Part shown: positions 7,966-14,477 of the stretch, one piece after another
Layout: every line of letters begins with the position of its first letter
How positions within the stretch are numbered: position 1 is the first letter of the stretch
IMG/VR virus record: IMGVR_UViG_3300043313_001732
Location: 1-25,632 of that record
Reading direction: 5' to 3' (one strand)
Source: a virus
Length of the DNA stretch: 25,632 nt
Position numbers and translations under genes: made by a program
Notes under the pieces: generated by a model
What the model saw: only the letters and a program-made list of their open reading frames with translations
Databases searched by the model: none
Told to the model about the DNA's origin: nothing

Positions 7966-8003
7966 GCGAGGACCCTAGCAAATACGTGTACACATGGTAG
8001 GCT
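7966..8003. promoter_or_regulatory. Divergent promoter region around one GTGTACAC palindrome
   Basis: The palindrome GTGTACAC is at 7986-7993. Leftward, a perfect TAGGGT -10 box occupies 7977-7972, 8 nt from the palindrome, and the GTG start of the leftward operon is at 7964; this predicts leaderless translation. Rightward, TAGGCT (7998-8003) could serve the 8052 unit, but it is only 4 nt from the palindrome, so its use is less certain. One bound protein could thus control both directions. Confidence 0.6.
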
Positions 8004-8051
8004 GCCGCGATCCCGGCGTCAGGAACCGGGGCTACCGAAGGAGATCCAGCA

Positions 8052-8186
8052 ATGGCAACCGTCACCGCGAAATGCGTGGCCTGCGAAGCGCAGCGCCAGA
8101 TCAAGGAAGGCGAGGTCAAACCCGGCGAGCAGCCGATGTGCGAGAAGTGCGGCTCGCCGATGATCGCGATCGGAGCGAAATCGTGA
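8052..8186 (+). CDS. Very small zinc-ribbon protein
   Basis: This 44-residue protein is preceded by AAGGAGA (8038-8044). It contains two knuckles, KCVACEA and MCEKCGSPM, which together make a complete four-cysteine zinc ribbon. It resembles the DUF5679-type mini-ribbons of actinobacterial phages. It is translationally coupled to the recombinase (GTGA), so it may be a small partner, but no role is known. Confidence 0.75.
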   Translation: MATVTAKCVACEAQRQIKEGEVKPGEQPMCEKCGSPMIAIGAKS

Positions 8187-8785
8187 GCTCCCGACCCGAT
8201 CTCGTCACCCCCTGGGCCGACCGAGAGGAACTGCGCAAGCTGCTCCTCGCCGCCCGCGATAACCACCCGCGCGACTTTCTGCTCGTCGCCCTCCTCGGCC
8301 TCAACGGCCTGCGCGTCTCCGAGGCAATCGAGGCCGATGCCGAGGATCTCGGTAGCTCCGGCGGGCACCGCACCCTCCACGTGGTGCGCAAGGGCCGCAA
8401 GCGCGGCGTCGTGCCGCTGGCGCCGGTCGTCTGCACGTCGATCGACGAGTTCCTCGCAGGACGCACGGAGGGGCCGCTCCTGCCGCGCCTACACGCCTCC
8501 GGGGCGGTGTTGGAGCCCTTGGTCGGGATCTCCCGGCAGACGGCCTGGGATCGCGTCAAGGCCCTGGCTGACTGGATCGGCGTCAACCCCGACCTCTCGC
8601 CCCACTCCCTACGGCGCAGCTTCGTCACCCTCGCCTTGCAGGACGGGGCGCCGCTGCATCAGGTGCAGCTCGCGGTCGGCCACGCCTCGCCGACGACGAC
8701 GATGATCTACATGAAGGACGCGGGTGGCCTCGAGCACAACCCGACCTTCGAGTTGGCTGACTCTCTACTTCGAGTGGAGGGTTAG
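8183..8785 (+). CDS. Tyrosine recombinase, catalytic domain only
   Basis: The start is GTG in the GTGA overlap; longer upstream frames cross the promoter region. The 200 residues form a phage integrase/XerC-D catalytic domain with the full set of active-site residues. These are Arg44 (NGLRVSEA), Lys70 (VVRKGRKR), His141 and Arg144 (PHSLRRSF), His167 (VGHASPTTT) and the nucleophile Tyr176 (MIYMKD). The usual N-terminal core-binding (SAM-like) and arm-binding domains, about 100-180 residues, are missing. It may integrate the phage, resolve multimers or invert DNA. No excisionase, repressor or adjacent attachment site is visible. Confidence 0.92.
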   Translation: MSSRPDLVTPWADREELRKLLLAARDNHPRDFLLVALLGLNGLRVSEAIEADAEDLGSSGGHRTLHVVRKGRKRGVVPLAPVVCTSIDEFLAGRTEGPLLPRLHASGAVLEPLVGISRQTAWDRVKALADWIGVNPDLSPHSLRRSFVTLALQDGAPLHQVQLAVGHASPTTTMIYMKDAGGLEHNPTFELADSLLRVEG

Positions 8786-9458: not shown

Positions 9459-9493
9459 AAAACGGGTCGTCCTTCGGGGCGGCCCGTTTCTTT
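9459..9493 (+). terminator. Rho-independent terminator
   Basis: AAACGGG pairs with CCCGTTT, with an inner CGTCC/GGGGCG region across a TTCG loop, followed by CTTT. It separates the recombinase unit from the replication operon. Confidence 0.88.
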
Positions 9494-9556: not shown

Positions 9557-10294
9557 ATGGCCGGCAAGGTCGTCGGCTGGGCCTTCGAGCAGAGCCGAGA
9601 GCGCGAGCTCTCCCCCACGCAGCGCTTCATCCTCGTCGCCTACGCCGACAACGCCGCCGAAGCTGACGGCAAGTGCTGGCCCGACAAGGAGGAGATCGTC
9701 GAGAAGACGGGCTACTCCCAGGCAACGGTCTACCGGGCGATCAAGGAGCTCGAAGCCGCGGCGCTGATCGACTTCACCGAGGACTCGAAGGGCCGACCCT
9801 GCGCCTATTTGTCGGTCCCCTGGTTTTCTCACAGTGAGAAAGACGATTCTCAGGCTGAGAAAAATAATTCTCACAGTGAGAAAAGCACTAATAAGGGAAC
9901 CGTCAAGGAACCGTCACAGAGGAAGCGACCGAAAAAAAAGGTAGGGGGAAAAGTCGTTTCCGACGACGAGTTCGATCTCGCTGCTGCTGTTGTTTCGCTG
10001 TTCAATAGTTCCGCCGGCACCGAGCTCACGACCGAGGCGCACCTGACCCCGATCGTCGGCCGCATTCGCGAACGGCCGAAGCTGACCGCGGAGCAGCACG
10101 GCAAGATCGTCGAGGCGGTCTTCGCGGGCGAGCATTGGTGGACCGGGCCGCCGACGCCGAAGATCATCTACGGCAACCCCGCGATCTTCGAGCAGTCGAT
10201 CGAGCTGGCCCGCGACCGGGCGAAGAAAGCCACCAAGCGCTTCGACGTCAACGCCGAGGCTGAGCGCATCCGCCGCGAGCAGGGGCTTGGCTGA
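9557..10294 (+). CDS. Winged-helix replication initiator-like protein with embedded iterons
   Basis: GGAGGAG precedes the ATG. The 245-residue protein has an N-terminal winged helix-turn-helix (about 18-80: LSPTQRFILVAYAD, KEEIVEKTGYSQATVYRAIK), as in phage Rep/O-like proteins. A linker (91-130) holds three copies of a seven-residue repeat (SHSEKDD, SQAEKNN, SHSEKST) and then a basic stretch. The C-terminal domain has the Trp-Trp...TPK pattern seen in replisome-organiser C-termini. It is directly followed by DnaB, which the protein would load at the origin. The repeat is forced by DNA palindromes in the gene, so this gene probably contains its own origin, as lambda O does. A transcription regulator is the alternative. 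Confidence 0.82.
   Translation: MAGKVVGWAFEQSRERELSPTQRFILVAYADNAAEADGKCWPDKEEIVEKTGYSQATVYRAIKELEAAALIDFTEDSKGRPCAYLSVPWFSHSEKDDSQAEKNNSHSEKSTNKGTVKEPSQRKRPKKKVGGKVVSDDEFDLAAAVVSLFNSSAGTELTTEAHLTPIVGRIRERPKLTAEQHGKIVEAVFAGEHWWTGPPTPKIIYGNPAIFEQSIELARDRAKKATKRFDVNAEAERIRREQGLG
9825..9916 (+). repeat. Putative replication origin: three palindromic iterons plus low-GC flank
   Basis: Three 15-bp perfect palindromes lie at 9826-9840, 9847-9861 and 9868-9882. They are TTCTCACAGTGAGAA, TTCTCAGGCTGAGAA and TTCTCACAGTGAGAA again. Their starts are exactly 21 bp apart, two helical turns, so bound proteins would face the same side. An 11-bp-period direct repeat (GGAACCGTCA twice, 9896-9916) and a stretch with A-runs to about 9945 follow, the most AT-rich part of the window. 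This fits an initiator-bound iteron array beside an unwinding element. Confidence 0.75.
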
Positions 10295-11706
10295 TGGGCC
10301 GCGTGACCCGAAGTGTCGGCGGCCCGCCTCCGACTTCCCCGCCGGTCCAAGTGCCGCCGCAGAACATTGAGGCCGAGGAGGCGGTGATCGGCGCCATGCT
10401 TGTCGCGCAGCCGGCGATCAAACGGGTCCGCGGCGACGTCGGCTTGGTGGCCGCGCACTTCTACCTCGACAAGCACCGGCTGATCTTCGAGGCGATCTGC
10501 TCCGTCGCCGATCGCAATGGCACCGCCGACGAGCTGATGGTCAACGAGGAGCTCACCCGGCGCCAGAAGATCGACGAAGCCGGCGGCAAGCACTACGTCT
10601 CCGAGCTCGCCGCCAAGGTCCCTGCCGCCGGCAACGCCGGTCACTACGCCGAGATCGTCCTGCTCAACGCGCAGCTCCGGGCGAAGCTCCACGGCGGCCA
10701 GCTCATTCAGCAAGGCGTCTTCGAGGACGACCCCGAGAAGCAGGCCGAGATGATCCGCGACGGGCTCGAGCTCGCCACCGCCGACTTCACGGTGGACTCC
10801 GAAGTGACGTCGGGCGAGGCGATCCTCTCCGAGCTCTTCGACTACTTCGACACCCAGGAAGAGGGCGACGTCTTCGAGTTGCCCTGGCCGGATCTCAACG
10901 ACTGCGTGATCGGCGGCTTCCGCCGCAAGCAGATGTCGGTGCTGGCCGGGTGGACCGGAATGGGGAAGAGCTGGGTGCTCGATCAGATGCTCGCCGCCTT
11001 CACCGCGCAGGGCTACAAATGCGGCCTCTTCGCGACGGAGATGGGGCGCGAGGAGAGGGCGGCCAGGTGGTTGACGTCGGAGACGGCGGTGCCGCTCGAA
11101 AAGATCATGCGCAACCGCCTCGAGCCGAAGGATATGAAGCGGCTGCTTGAGGCGGCCAACAAACATCAGGCCCTCCCCTTCGACTACTTCGAGGCGTTCG
11201 ATTGGAGCGCCGACAAGATCGCCGAACGGGCGATGTACGGCGATTACGACATCGTCGCGATCGACCCGATCACCGAAATTCCCGGCTTCGAGAAAACCGA
11301 GCTCGCCGCTGCGATCACCCGGCGACTGGCCCGGCTCGCCTCGAGGGCCGAGTGCCACGTGATCGCCGTCGCCCACTTGAACCGGAACCGGCTGCGTGAC
11401 CCGAAGGGAGTGAAGCCGCGGCCGCTCTGCCTCGACCTCAAGGGCTCGGGCTCCCTCGAAACGCTGGCCCACGCCGTGCTCTTCCTGCACCGCAGCCAGG
11501 ACGAAGACGCGAACGTGCTGCCCGAGGGCGAGCTCTACTTCGACAAGGTCCGCAACGGCCTCAAGAAGTCGTTGCCGGTCTACCAAAACAGCCGCACCCA
11601 CCTCTTCTATCGACTGACGCCGCCACCGAAACATGAGCAGTCGGCGCTCGAGGTCGGCAACGTCGCGGAGCCGCCGCCCGGACACGACCAACGGAGGGAC
11701 GACTGA
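10294..11706 (+). CDS. dnaB: Replicative DNA helicase, DnaB family
   Basis: The start shares one base with the previous stop (TGATG). The 470 residues have the DnaB N-terminal domain (about 20-160, beginning PPQNIEAEEAVIGAML) and a RecA-like motor. Motor motifs are the Walker A GWTGMGKS (219-226), Walker B DIVAIDP (319-325), AVAHLNR (358-364) and the SGSLET motif near 385. The last 40 residues are proline-rich and poorly ordered. It unwinds DNA at the fork, most likely after loading by the upstream initiator. No separate DnaC-like loader with a Walker motif is present in the operon. Confidence 0.95.
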   Translation: MGRVTRSVGGPPPTSPPVQVPPQNIEAEEAVIGAMLVAQPAIKRVRGDVGLVAAHFYLDKHRLIFEAICSVADRNGTADELMVNEELTRRQKIDEAGGKHYVSELAAKVPAAGNAGHYAEIVLLNAQLRAKLHGGQLIQQGVFEDDPEKQAEMIRDGLELATADFTVDSEVTSGEAILSELFDYFDTQEEGDVFELPWPDLNDCVIGGFRRKQMSVLAGWTGMGKSWVLDQMLAAFTAQGYKCGLFATEMGREERAARWLTSETAVPLEKIMRNRLEPKDMKRLLEAANKHQALPFDYFEAFDWSADKIAERAMYGDYDIVAIDPITEIPGFEKTELAAAITRRLARLASRAECHVIAVAHLNRNRLRDPKGVKPRPLCLDLKGSGSLETLAHAVLFLHRSQDEDANVLPEGELYFDKVRNGLKKSLPVYQNSRTHLFYRLTPPPKHEQSALEVGNVAEPPPGHDQRRDD

Positions 11707-12514: not shown

Positions 12515-12724
12515 ATGAGCGCGACCTGCAAGGACTGCAAAGAGACGATCCATTGGGCGGCGATCGACGGCCGCTCGCTCCCCTTCGAGCGCTGCCAGAT
12601 CGACAACCCCGGCGCCGTCTCGATCTACAAGCACGGCGGCACCTACCGCGCCGCCCCCCACCGAGGCCACCCCCACGTGCAGGCATATCGCCGGCACCAA
12701 TGCAGGAAGAGGAGATCCAAATGA
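12515..12724 (+). CDS. Small zinc-binding hypothetical protein
   Basis: The ATG follows the upstream TAA without a gap. The 69 residues have a TCKDCKETIHWAAIDGRS start and a HQCRKRRSK end. Paired cysteines, several histidines and a basic tail fit a small treble-clef protein that touches nucleic acid. The stop overlaps the nuclease start (ATGA). Confidence 0.72.
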   Translation: MSATCKDCKETIHWAAIDGRSLPFERCQIDNPGAVSIYKHGGTYRAAPHRGHPHVQAYRRHQCRKRRSK

Positions 12725-13692
12725 CCGTTGCGCTGACCGTGCTCGAGGGGCTCCCCGAGCTGATCCCGTCCGACGTGCAGAACCTCGTCGACCAAGAGGA
12801 CCGCGAAGGCCGCGCCTCCCTCTCGCACTCGTCGCTCAACACCCAGCTCGCTTGCCATCAGCGCTACGCCTACAGCTACGTCGACAAGATCGAACCGATC
12901 GCCAGGGCGGCCAGCCTTCGCCTCGGCGGGGCCTTCGCCAAGGCGACCGAGACGGGCGACCCTGCGGACGGCGTCGCGAAGCTCTCCGCGGAAGCGACGA
13001 TCCTCACCCAAGAGGATCAGGACCGGCTCACCGTCGACTGCGCGATCGTCACCGGGGCGGCCAGGGCCTACCTCGCCGCTTACGGCCGGCACGAGCGGCG
13101 AGAGTTCGGCTACCGGGTCCGGCTTCGCAACCCCGACACCGGGGCCTACTCGCGCACCTTCGACCTCGAGGGCTACGCAGACGGGCTCACCGACGACTGG
13201 ATGCTGATCGAGGACAAGCTCGTAGGGCAGATGCAGGCGGTGGCGATCAAGCGGTTGAAGCTCGACCGGCAGCTCGCCCTCGAGTGCTACGGGATCTGGC
13301 GGGCGACCGGCCACGAGATCACCGACGTCTCCTACCGCTTCACCCGCAAGCCGTCGATCAAGCAGAAGAAAACGGAGACGGTCGAAGAGTACGCCGAGCG
13401 GGTCGAAGCCGACTACGCCGAGCGGCCCGAGTTCTATCTCGTCGAGGAGCCGATCACCCGCAGCGCCACCGACCTCGTGCGGATCGAGGCTGAGCTCTGG
13501 CAATGGGCCGCCCAGCGGCGGGAGGCGTCGAGGGCGCGGATCTACCCGCGCAACTCGAGCCATTGCCACGACTACGGCGGCTGCCCCTTCTTGCCGCTCT
13601 GCGTCGGCGACCCCGACGCGCCTTCCCTGTTCAAGGAGAAGGTCCGAAGTGACCGTAAACCCAGCACCCAAAACGAGGAGGACAACGCATGA
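12721..13692 (+). CDS. PD-(D/E)XK exonuclease, RecB/Cas4-like, with predicted Fe-S cluster
   Basis: The ATGA overlap sets the start, giving 323 residues. LSHSSLNTQLACHQRYAYSY near the N-terminus matches the RecB/Cas4 opening 'S...L..C..R'. The nuclease core is GYADG (Asp154) and LIEDKLVG (Glu164, Lys166). Four cysteines, Cys45 plus Cys282, Cys288 and Cys294 (CHDYGGCPFLPLC), are placed as in the 4Fe-4S cluster that staples AddB/Cas4-type nucleases. Next to a Sak4 ATPase and an SSB-like protein, it is the likely exonuclease of the phage recombination system, producing single strands for annealing. A Cas4-related defence role is less likely because no cas genes or arrays are seen. Confidence 0.9.
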   Translation: MTVALTVLEGLPELIPSDVQNLVDQEDREGRASLSHSSLNTQLACHQRYAYSYVDKIEPIARAASLRLGGAFAKATETGDPADGVAKLSAEATILTQEDQDRLTVDCAIVTGAARAYLAAYGRHERREFGYRVRLRNPDTGAYSRTFDLEGYADGLTDDWMLIEDKLVGQMQAVAIKRLKLDRQLALECYGIWRATGHEITDVSYRFTRKPSIKQKKTETVEEYAERVEADYAERPEFYLVEEPITRSATDLVRIEAELWQWAAQRREASRARIYPRNSSHCHDYGGCPFLPLCVGDPDAPSLFKEKVRSDRKPSTQNEEDNA

Positions 13693-14477
13693 CGCTCCCC
13701 ACGGAGAAGTCCGCGCCGTCGCTCTCCCCCGCTCGGATCAAGGCCCTCCTCTATGGGCCGCCGAAGATCGGGAAGAGCACGTTCGCATCGAAGATCAACC
13801 CCGACAAGACGCTCTTCATCGCGACCGAACCGGGCCTTGGCTCGCTCGAGGTCTACCAGGCGCCCGTCTCCAATTGGGAGGAGTTCCTTGCGGTCGGCCA
13901 GGAAATCGCCGAAGACGCGAAGAAGGGCAAGGACCGGCGCTTCGACGTGGTCGCCGTCGACACGGTCGACGAGCTCTACCGCTTCTGCTCCGACTACGTC
14001 TGCGCCCAGCTCGGGATCAAGCACCCGAGCGACGCCGAATACGGCAAGGGGTGGTCGGCCGTCGCCGACGAGTTCCGACTGCGGATCGGCAAGCTCGCCA
14101 ATCTGGGGCTCGGGGTGTGGTTCATCTCCCACGCCGAGGATCGCGAGGTCAAGAAGAAAGTCGGCTCGAAGACGGTCACGCAGCCGACCCTCTCCGGCCA
14201 GGCCCGCAAGTTCCTCGTCGGCTTTGTCGACTTCATCTTCCTCGCCGAGTGGGAGGGGGAGGAGGAGAAGAGCAAGCGGGTCCTGCGGACCCAGGGCGCC
14301 GAGCACCACGAGGCCGGCGGTCGTGTCCCCGAGGACTCTGCCCCCCTCCCCGATCCGCTTCCGCTCGACGCGGTGATCCTCCGCAAAGAGATGGCGAAGT
14401 CGCTGGCGCCGCCGGCCGCGCCCGAGTCCGAGCCCGAGAAGCCCAAACCCGCGAAACAGGAGAAGAAGACCAAATGA
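13689..14477 (+). CDS. Sak4-type RecA-like recombination ATPase
   Basis: This 262-residue protein starts at ATGA. A RecA-fold NTPase is shown by the Walker A YGPPKIGKST (22-31), Walker B FDVVAVDT (85-92) and ISHAEDRE (146-153). The spacing is that of phage Sak4/AAA_24 single-strand annealing ATPases. The last 50 residues are Pro/Glu/Lys-rich and disordered. Sak4 proteins work with an SSB-like partner, which here is the next gene. With the upstream exonuclease it makes a complete homologous recombination set. Confidence 0.9.
   Translation: MTLPTEKSAPSLSPARIKALLYGPPKIGKSTFASKINPDKTLFIATEPGLGSLEVYQAPVSNWEEFLAVGQEIAEDAKKGKDRRFDVVAVDTVDELYRFCSDYVCAQLGIKHPSDAEYGKGWSAVADEFRLRIGKLANLGLGVWFISHAEDREVKKKVGSKTVTQPTLSGQARKFLVGFVDFIFLAEWEGEEEKSKRVLRTQGAEHHEAGGRVPEDSAPLPDPLPLDAVILRKEMAKSLAPPAAPESEPEKPKPAKQEKKTK

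Follow-up and report, generated by a model that had tools for sequence, protein, structure and literature searches.

Origins of replication that lie within the gene of their own initiator protein are a known kind. In ori-lambda, near-perfect 19-bp inverted-repeat iterons are located in the middle of the O gene, each bound by one O dimer, and are followed by a 40-bp A+T-rich region (PMC5043065, PMC7466680). In Stx phages, extra iterons lengthen the O protein by 13 residues, and synonymous changes in the iterons abolish transformation by origin plasmids (PMC7466680). The SPP1 initiator gp38 binds the repeats of oriL, which are contained in gene 38 itself next to an AT-rich unwinding element (PMC6316719), and phage MD8 is also described as having repeats in its O-like gene (PMC8508860). 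The iterons of plasmids are bound by Rep proteins in monomeric form (PMC5043065).

Here, we analyze a stretch of viral DNA (the window, a virus record of 25,632 bp) in which the segment 9825–9943 very probably constitutes the core of a replication origin inside its own initiator gene, with iterons of the lambda-O type; protein binding, dimerization, melting and helicase loading at this core are steps that we infer. What differs from the described systems is a DnaB-like gene replacing P, the perfect symmetry of the iterons, their exact phasing, and the element GAACC(G/C)TCA. The evidence supports the anatomy of the locus, conservation at the level of DNA, and the generality of sites in the linker of the initiator.

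Comparison with described origins

In lambda O/ori-lambda and the Stx origins, as with the putative origin of the window, the origin is placed in the initiator gene after the DNA-binding domain, and several inverted-repeat iterons adjoin an AT-rich stretch. The initial annotation had likened the window to lambda O/ori, which agrees with our analysis, but its further statement that palindromic iterons distinguish the window from lambda does not hold: in lambda, too, each iteron is a near-perfect inverted repeat and is bound by an O dimer (PMC5043065, PMC7466680; lambda sequence), and the layout in the window is therefore the lambda layout. The two systems differ in other respects. The dyads in the window are perfect over 15–17 nt, have another sequence and are phased at 21 bp, whereas those of lambda are imperfect 19-bp dyads with a spacing of 20, 24, and 23 bp (L029); the iterons in the window are followed by GAACCGTCA repeats, which lambda O lacks; and the downstream gene encodes a DnaB-like helicase rather than the loader P.

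SPP1 shares with the window an initiator gene that holds the repeats of its own origin and an AT-rich element adjacent to them, but its repeats are direct, its helicase loader gp39 is a separate protein, and it has a second origin, oriR. The Pseudomonas and Stenotrophomonas phages TC7 and CUB19 have an HTH-type O-like gene with repeated linker DNA followed by GAACCGTCA-type repeats, as in the window; however, their iterons are of the CACCCCCGCAGNNNNTGCACC type, and TC7 carries a P-like gene downstream. Iteron plasmids (P1, F, RK2, R6K) likewise combine helix-phased arrays of initiator sites with an AT-rich region. In contrast to these plasmids, the window has palindromic sites inside coding sequence, and no Rep-type initiator domain was found, HTH_36 being the sole Pfam match of the initiator protein above the curated cut-off.

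Architecture of the initiator locus

The features of the locus are listed in Table 1. The assignment of the gene as a replication initiator in the initial annotation is borne out by the Pfam match, by matches to PHROG 270, 1032, and 391 ('replication initiation', 'O-like'; best, PHROG 270 at 2e-12, with PHROG 391 at 1e-11), and by the DnaB-like helicase gene that comes next. In the AlphaFold2 model, residues 1–90 resemble winged-helix folds with Z scores of 9–11; the model is poor beyond the winged helix, with low confidence for the remainder and a mean pLDDT of 45.5, and the linker directly behind the winged helix is predicted to be disordered (pLDDT about 25).

Table 1 Features of the putative origin and its gene neighborhood in the window
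Feature	Position	Strand	Evidence or remark
O-like replication initiator gene, 245 aa (stop included)	9557..10294	+	HTH_36 3.8e-10; PHROG
Winged-helix DNA-binding domain (HTH_36, residues 17–70)	9605..9766	+	Pfam and AlphaFold2 model
Lowest-GC 120-nt segment (41.7%), candidate unwinding region, overlaps iterons	9824..9943		GC windows
Iteron 1, 17-nt palindrome TTTCTCACAGTGAGAAA	9825..9841		Conserved in L002, L009, L003, L004, L021
Iteron 2, palindrome TTCTCAGGCTGAGAA	9847..9861		Center base variable among homologues (A to P in L002)
Iteron 3, palindrome TTCTCACAGTGAGAA	9868..9882		Sequence
Second element copy 1, GAACCGTCA, read G-T-V-K	9897..9905	+	Sequence, tandem scan
Second element copy 2, GAACCGTCA, read E-P-S	9908..9916	+	Sequence, tandem scan
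A8 tract	9932..9939	+	Sequence
C-terminal tail FDVNAEAERIRREQ of initiator	10241..10282	+	Sequence comparison; function inferred
DnaB-like replicative helicase gene	10294..11706	+	DnaB_C 1.2e-27, DnaB 7.4e-26

The stop codon of the initiator gene overlaps the start codon of the helicase gene, and a DnaB-like helicase gene directly follows the initiator in all five homologous contigs checked (L002, L003, L004, L005, and L009); in none of these, nor in the window, is there a P-type helicase loader gene directly downstream. The tail FDVNAEAERIRREQ is almost invariant in the window and L002–L005, where the domain preceding it is of two unrelated types. It is retained where the middle domain differs and, in L005, also where the winged helix is another one, and is a candidate for a helicase-contact tail.

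The three iterons are perfect palindromes with a free center base, situated in the linker after the winged helix. Their 15-mer palindromes begin at 9826, 9847, and 9868, i.e., at a spacing of exactly 21 bp, and the peptide encoded over them reads SHSEK, SQAEK, and SHSEK. Positions and translation agree with the in-gene palindromes and seven-residue peptide repeat described earlier, and the 11-bp direct repeat and A-rich stretch reported to follow them correspond to two copies of GGAACCGTCA with a period of 11 bp and the A8 tract. The candidate unwinding region has the lowest GC content of the contig (mean 67.6%, s.d. 4.2 for 120-nt windows; next-lowest 120-nt window, 56.7%), and it overlaps the iterons, not being confined to the DNA next to them. 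A switch in GC skew, which had been put forward as a mark of the origin, is not clearly seen at 9825–9943, the profile being weak and irregular; for a 25.6-kb contig with no completeness estimate this is a weak test.

Short perfect palindromes are typical of operators, and the winged-helix fold of the initiator resembles the MarR, Fur, and LexA proteins. The sites could accordingly be operators at which the winged-helix protein, or another phage regulator, represses transcription within the gene (autoregulation by roadblock), with replication starting elsewhere. We consider this unlikely given that the sites are inside an O-like gene adjoining a DnaB-like helicase gene, that they coincide with the AT-rich minimum of GC content, that three phased sites are accompanied by a second element common to other initiators, and that lambda provides a precedent for exactly such a layout. 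Operator and origin roles of the palindromes could also coexist.

The triple palindrome is not due to chance. Three palindromes with arms of at least 7 nt within 60 bp did not occur in any of 100 simulations from a first-order Markov model of the contig. When the same peptide was recoded with the codon usage of the contig, one palindrome (arm of at least 6 nt) arose in 0.15% of 30,000 trials, and no trial yielded two or more; the palindromes are built from codons that are rare in the contig, such as TCT (3%) and AGT (1%).

Conservation of the sites in homologues

Three TCYCANNNTGRGA sites with a spacing of 20–21 bp are present in six homologues counting the window, the others being L002, L009, L003, L004, and L021, and the sites of these five have at most one mismatch to TCYCANNNTGRGA and at most one broken pair per site. 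The reading frames across the sites vary. The window, L002, and L009 have site frames 0/0/0 at a spacing of 21/21 bp, L003 has frames 1/0/0 at 20/21 bp, and L004 and L021 have frames 1/0/2 at 20/20 bp, with the peptides VPQ.., S.., and FPTVG or RPTVG. The palindrome is retained over peptides as different as SHSEK, VPQGD, FPTVG, and RPTVG. The clades differ at the fourth half-site base, which switches on both arms from TTCTCA/TGAGAA to TTCCCA/TGGGAA, so that the dyad is kept while E changes to G, and the center of the middle site is GGC, GCC, or GAG in different homologues. Since the palindromes persist while frame and peptide change, the comparison supports conservation of the DNA sites, and not of the peptide, and agrees with the proposal in the initial annotation that the DNA site constrains the protein sequence. 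This comparison had been set beforehand as a test, with a protein repeat that is kept where the palindromes are lost as the outcome speaking against that proposal. The reverse was found, i.e., the palindromes stay where the protein repeat has disappeared, and no homologue keeping the repeat without the palindromes was found among L002, L009, L003, L004, and L021.

These results also bear on an explanation at the protein level, according to which a disordered linker grew by DNA slippage and the palindromes are a by-product of the repeated peptide. The linker is indeed repetitive and, as described above, predicted to be disordered, but palindromes almost never arise on synonymous recoding, and the sites of L003, L004, and L021 persist despite a changed frame and peptide. 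Such an origin of the palindromes has next to no probability in our assessment, and we reject it on the basis of the frame-shifted homologues unless these represent independent inventions.

In two further homologues, L005 and L028, the C-terminal domain is the shared one, but the winged helix is of another kind and the linker contains other dyad repeats, of the CCGGTC..GACCGG type and 24 bp apart. The sites thus travel with the DNA-binding domain.

Viral contigs were also scanned for tandem palindromes, defined as two TTCTCANNNTGAGAA sites 4–8 bp apart. The scan retrieved six contigs, and in five of them (L006, L007, which equals L002, L009, L010, and L011) the sites are in the linker of a winged-helix-type gene; for L006, L010, and L011 this assignment was made by reading the translations, L006 having no Pfam match and L011 matching a phage C-terminal family. 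The reading frame again differs from site to site in L006 (SQNEN / LLKMRT). At L006:3464-3595, a 330-aa gene that has no Pfam match contains an array of four or more TTCTCAAAATGAGAA palindromes that are not all in one frame. The TTCCCA-type scan also matched unrelated contigs with triple palindromes that are not in long ORFs, so that a palindrome alone is no proof of an initiator. These matches (L012, L014, L016, L017, and L020) are TTCCCAAGGTGGGAA-type triple palindromes with similar spacing, and a small membrane-type protein is common to the contigs; they represent a different system with a similar site.

The GAACC(G/C)TCA repeats

The direct repeat GGAACCGTCA behind the iterons has a 9-bp core, GAACCGTCA, and no further copies are present in the contig. 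The second copy starts 11 bp after the first, which places it in another reading frame. When viral contigs were searched for GAACCGTCA N{0,6} GAACCGTCA, at least 120 stretches were identified (loci L063–L182). Among the matches listed, 76 of 120 have the tandem 36–116 aa (median 68) behind a winged helix that belongs to the same ORF; of the 44 of 120 listed that have no detectable winged helix in the ORF, the majority are microsatellite-like repeats or initiator genes truncated at the end of a contig. A control scan using a synonymous spelling of E-P-S (GAGCCGTCG in tandem) yielded no winged-helix ORF among the 120 matches listed, a set dominated by simple repeats, and with the spelling GAACCCTCA, 17 of 31 matches are behind a winged helix.

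Among 53 non-redundant initiators taken from the matches listed, exact copies are read as E-P-S (71 copies), N-R-Q/H (21), and T-V (17), and the spacing is mostly 10, 11, or 12 bp; a frame other than E-P-S is used by 27 of 49 genes among the matches listed. GAACC pairs at such spacing are present in 10 of 32 initiators that were picked without using the motif, whereas synonymous shuffling predicts 2.1, and the remainder of the loci about 0. The cultured phage CUB19 has two exact GAACCGTCA copies in the T-V frame, and cultured phage TC7 has a GAACCGTCA-type array with one exact copy. The occurrence of GAACC(G/C)TCA in all three frames, and in initiators with unrelated iterons, identifies it as a shared DNA element.

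It is quite possible, if somewhat short of probable, that GAACC(G/C)TCA repeated every 10–12 bp behind private iterons is a second, shared origin element that is read by a conserved partner. Such a partner would be a host replication factor, the helicase, or a shared single-strand-binding function, and our best guess for the role of the element is a landing or melting site. Compared with the palindromes, it is the more novel part of the locus and appears to be undescribed in the open literature searched; none of the papers listed by a full-text search deals with phage replication, which is weak evidence of absence.

Dyad sites in diverse initiators

A protein-based search of 396 genomes, supplemented with viral loci, provided 75 non-redundant initiators among the matches listed, a sample that contains relatives despite redundancy filtering, and C-terminal regions from 26 genes served as controls. 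Iterons were scored as a pair of dyad sites at a distance of 15–36 bp within the 330 nt that follow the winged helix, relative to synonymous shuffling of the same gene. Iterated dyads were detected at p ≤ 0.05 in 40 of the 75 initiators (32 at p ≤ 0.01) but in only 1 of the 26 controls; roughly half of the initiators in the survey thus fail the test. The palindrome sequence differs from gene to gene, and for a few genes it was the GAACC element that the test picked up as the repeat. Similarity of the sites is predicted by similarity of the winged helices (Mantel r = 0.27, 0 of 2000 permutations), although r falls to 0.16 (5 of 2000 permutations) when the family of the window is left out; this is a correlation that common descent on one gene could produce as well as coevolution.

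The dyad periods cluster at 17 and 20–24 bp. Together with the spacing of 20–21 bp, or two helical turns, that is kept in the homologues of the window, this argues against conservation at the RNA level, where hairpins formed by the palindromes in the initiator mRNA would control translation or stability. The stretch does fold at −42.2 kcal/mol compared with −28.5 kcal/mol for shuffled sequences (z = −3.9), but any DNA palindrome would fold likewise, and no Rfam family was matched. We regard a role in RNA as highly improbable.

In a separate, prophage-like locus (L051), a short winged-helix protein ends in SLRELSSPTGG peptide repeats that are encoded by four identical GGGAACTGAGTTCCC palindromes 33 bp apart.

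Proposed mechanism

In the origin that we propose, the N-terminal winged helix probably binds as a dimer to each 15–17-bp palindrome. At a distance of two helical turns from one another, the three dimers would occupy the same face of the DNA and bend it in an O-some-like manner, whereupon the adjacent AT-rich stretch would melt. The C-terminal part, with its conserved tail, may then bring in the DnaB-like helicase, whose gene comes next. The SHSEK/SQAEK repeat of seven residues would be a side effect of having DNA sites in a linker that is flexible and under no constraint, and the pair of GAACC(G/C)TCA elements just downstream, one helical turn apart, would be part of the same origin, probably as a landing or melting site common to many of them.

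Sequence alone thus shows the linker of a phage initiator gene to be DNA first and protein second, with sites that outlast changes in the reading frame above them. Wide use of the frame and dyad test would make origins predictable from O-like initiator genes, with the sites directly behind the winged helix, and testing the specificity of initiators for their sites on a large scale becomes possible. The shared GAACC(G/C)TCA element suggests a common step after initiator binding that is not seen in the textbook case of lambda, and provides a concrete sequence to mutate.

Genomic context

Nucleotide searches of phage records and sequence searches of solved structures returned no matches. The genome scan for a host, which did not identify one, returned a single distant winged-helix relative in Jiangella muralis. 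Promoter and terminator scans gave no informative sites, and the tRNA scan found none. Upstream of the initiator gene, at 9460–9489, there is a hairpin, AAACGGGTCGTCC-TTCG-GGGCGGCCCGTTT, that looks terminator-like by eye and was not called by the terminator scan. Genes for a tyrosine integrase, a PD-(D/E)XK exonuclease, and a Sak4-like protein are found on either side of the replication genes (7994–8785 and 12553–14477), as in a temperate phage module.
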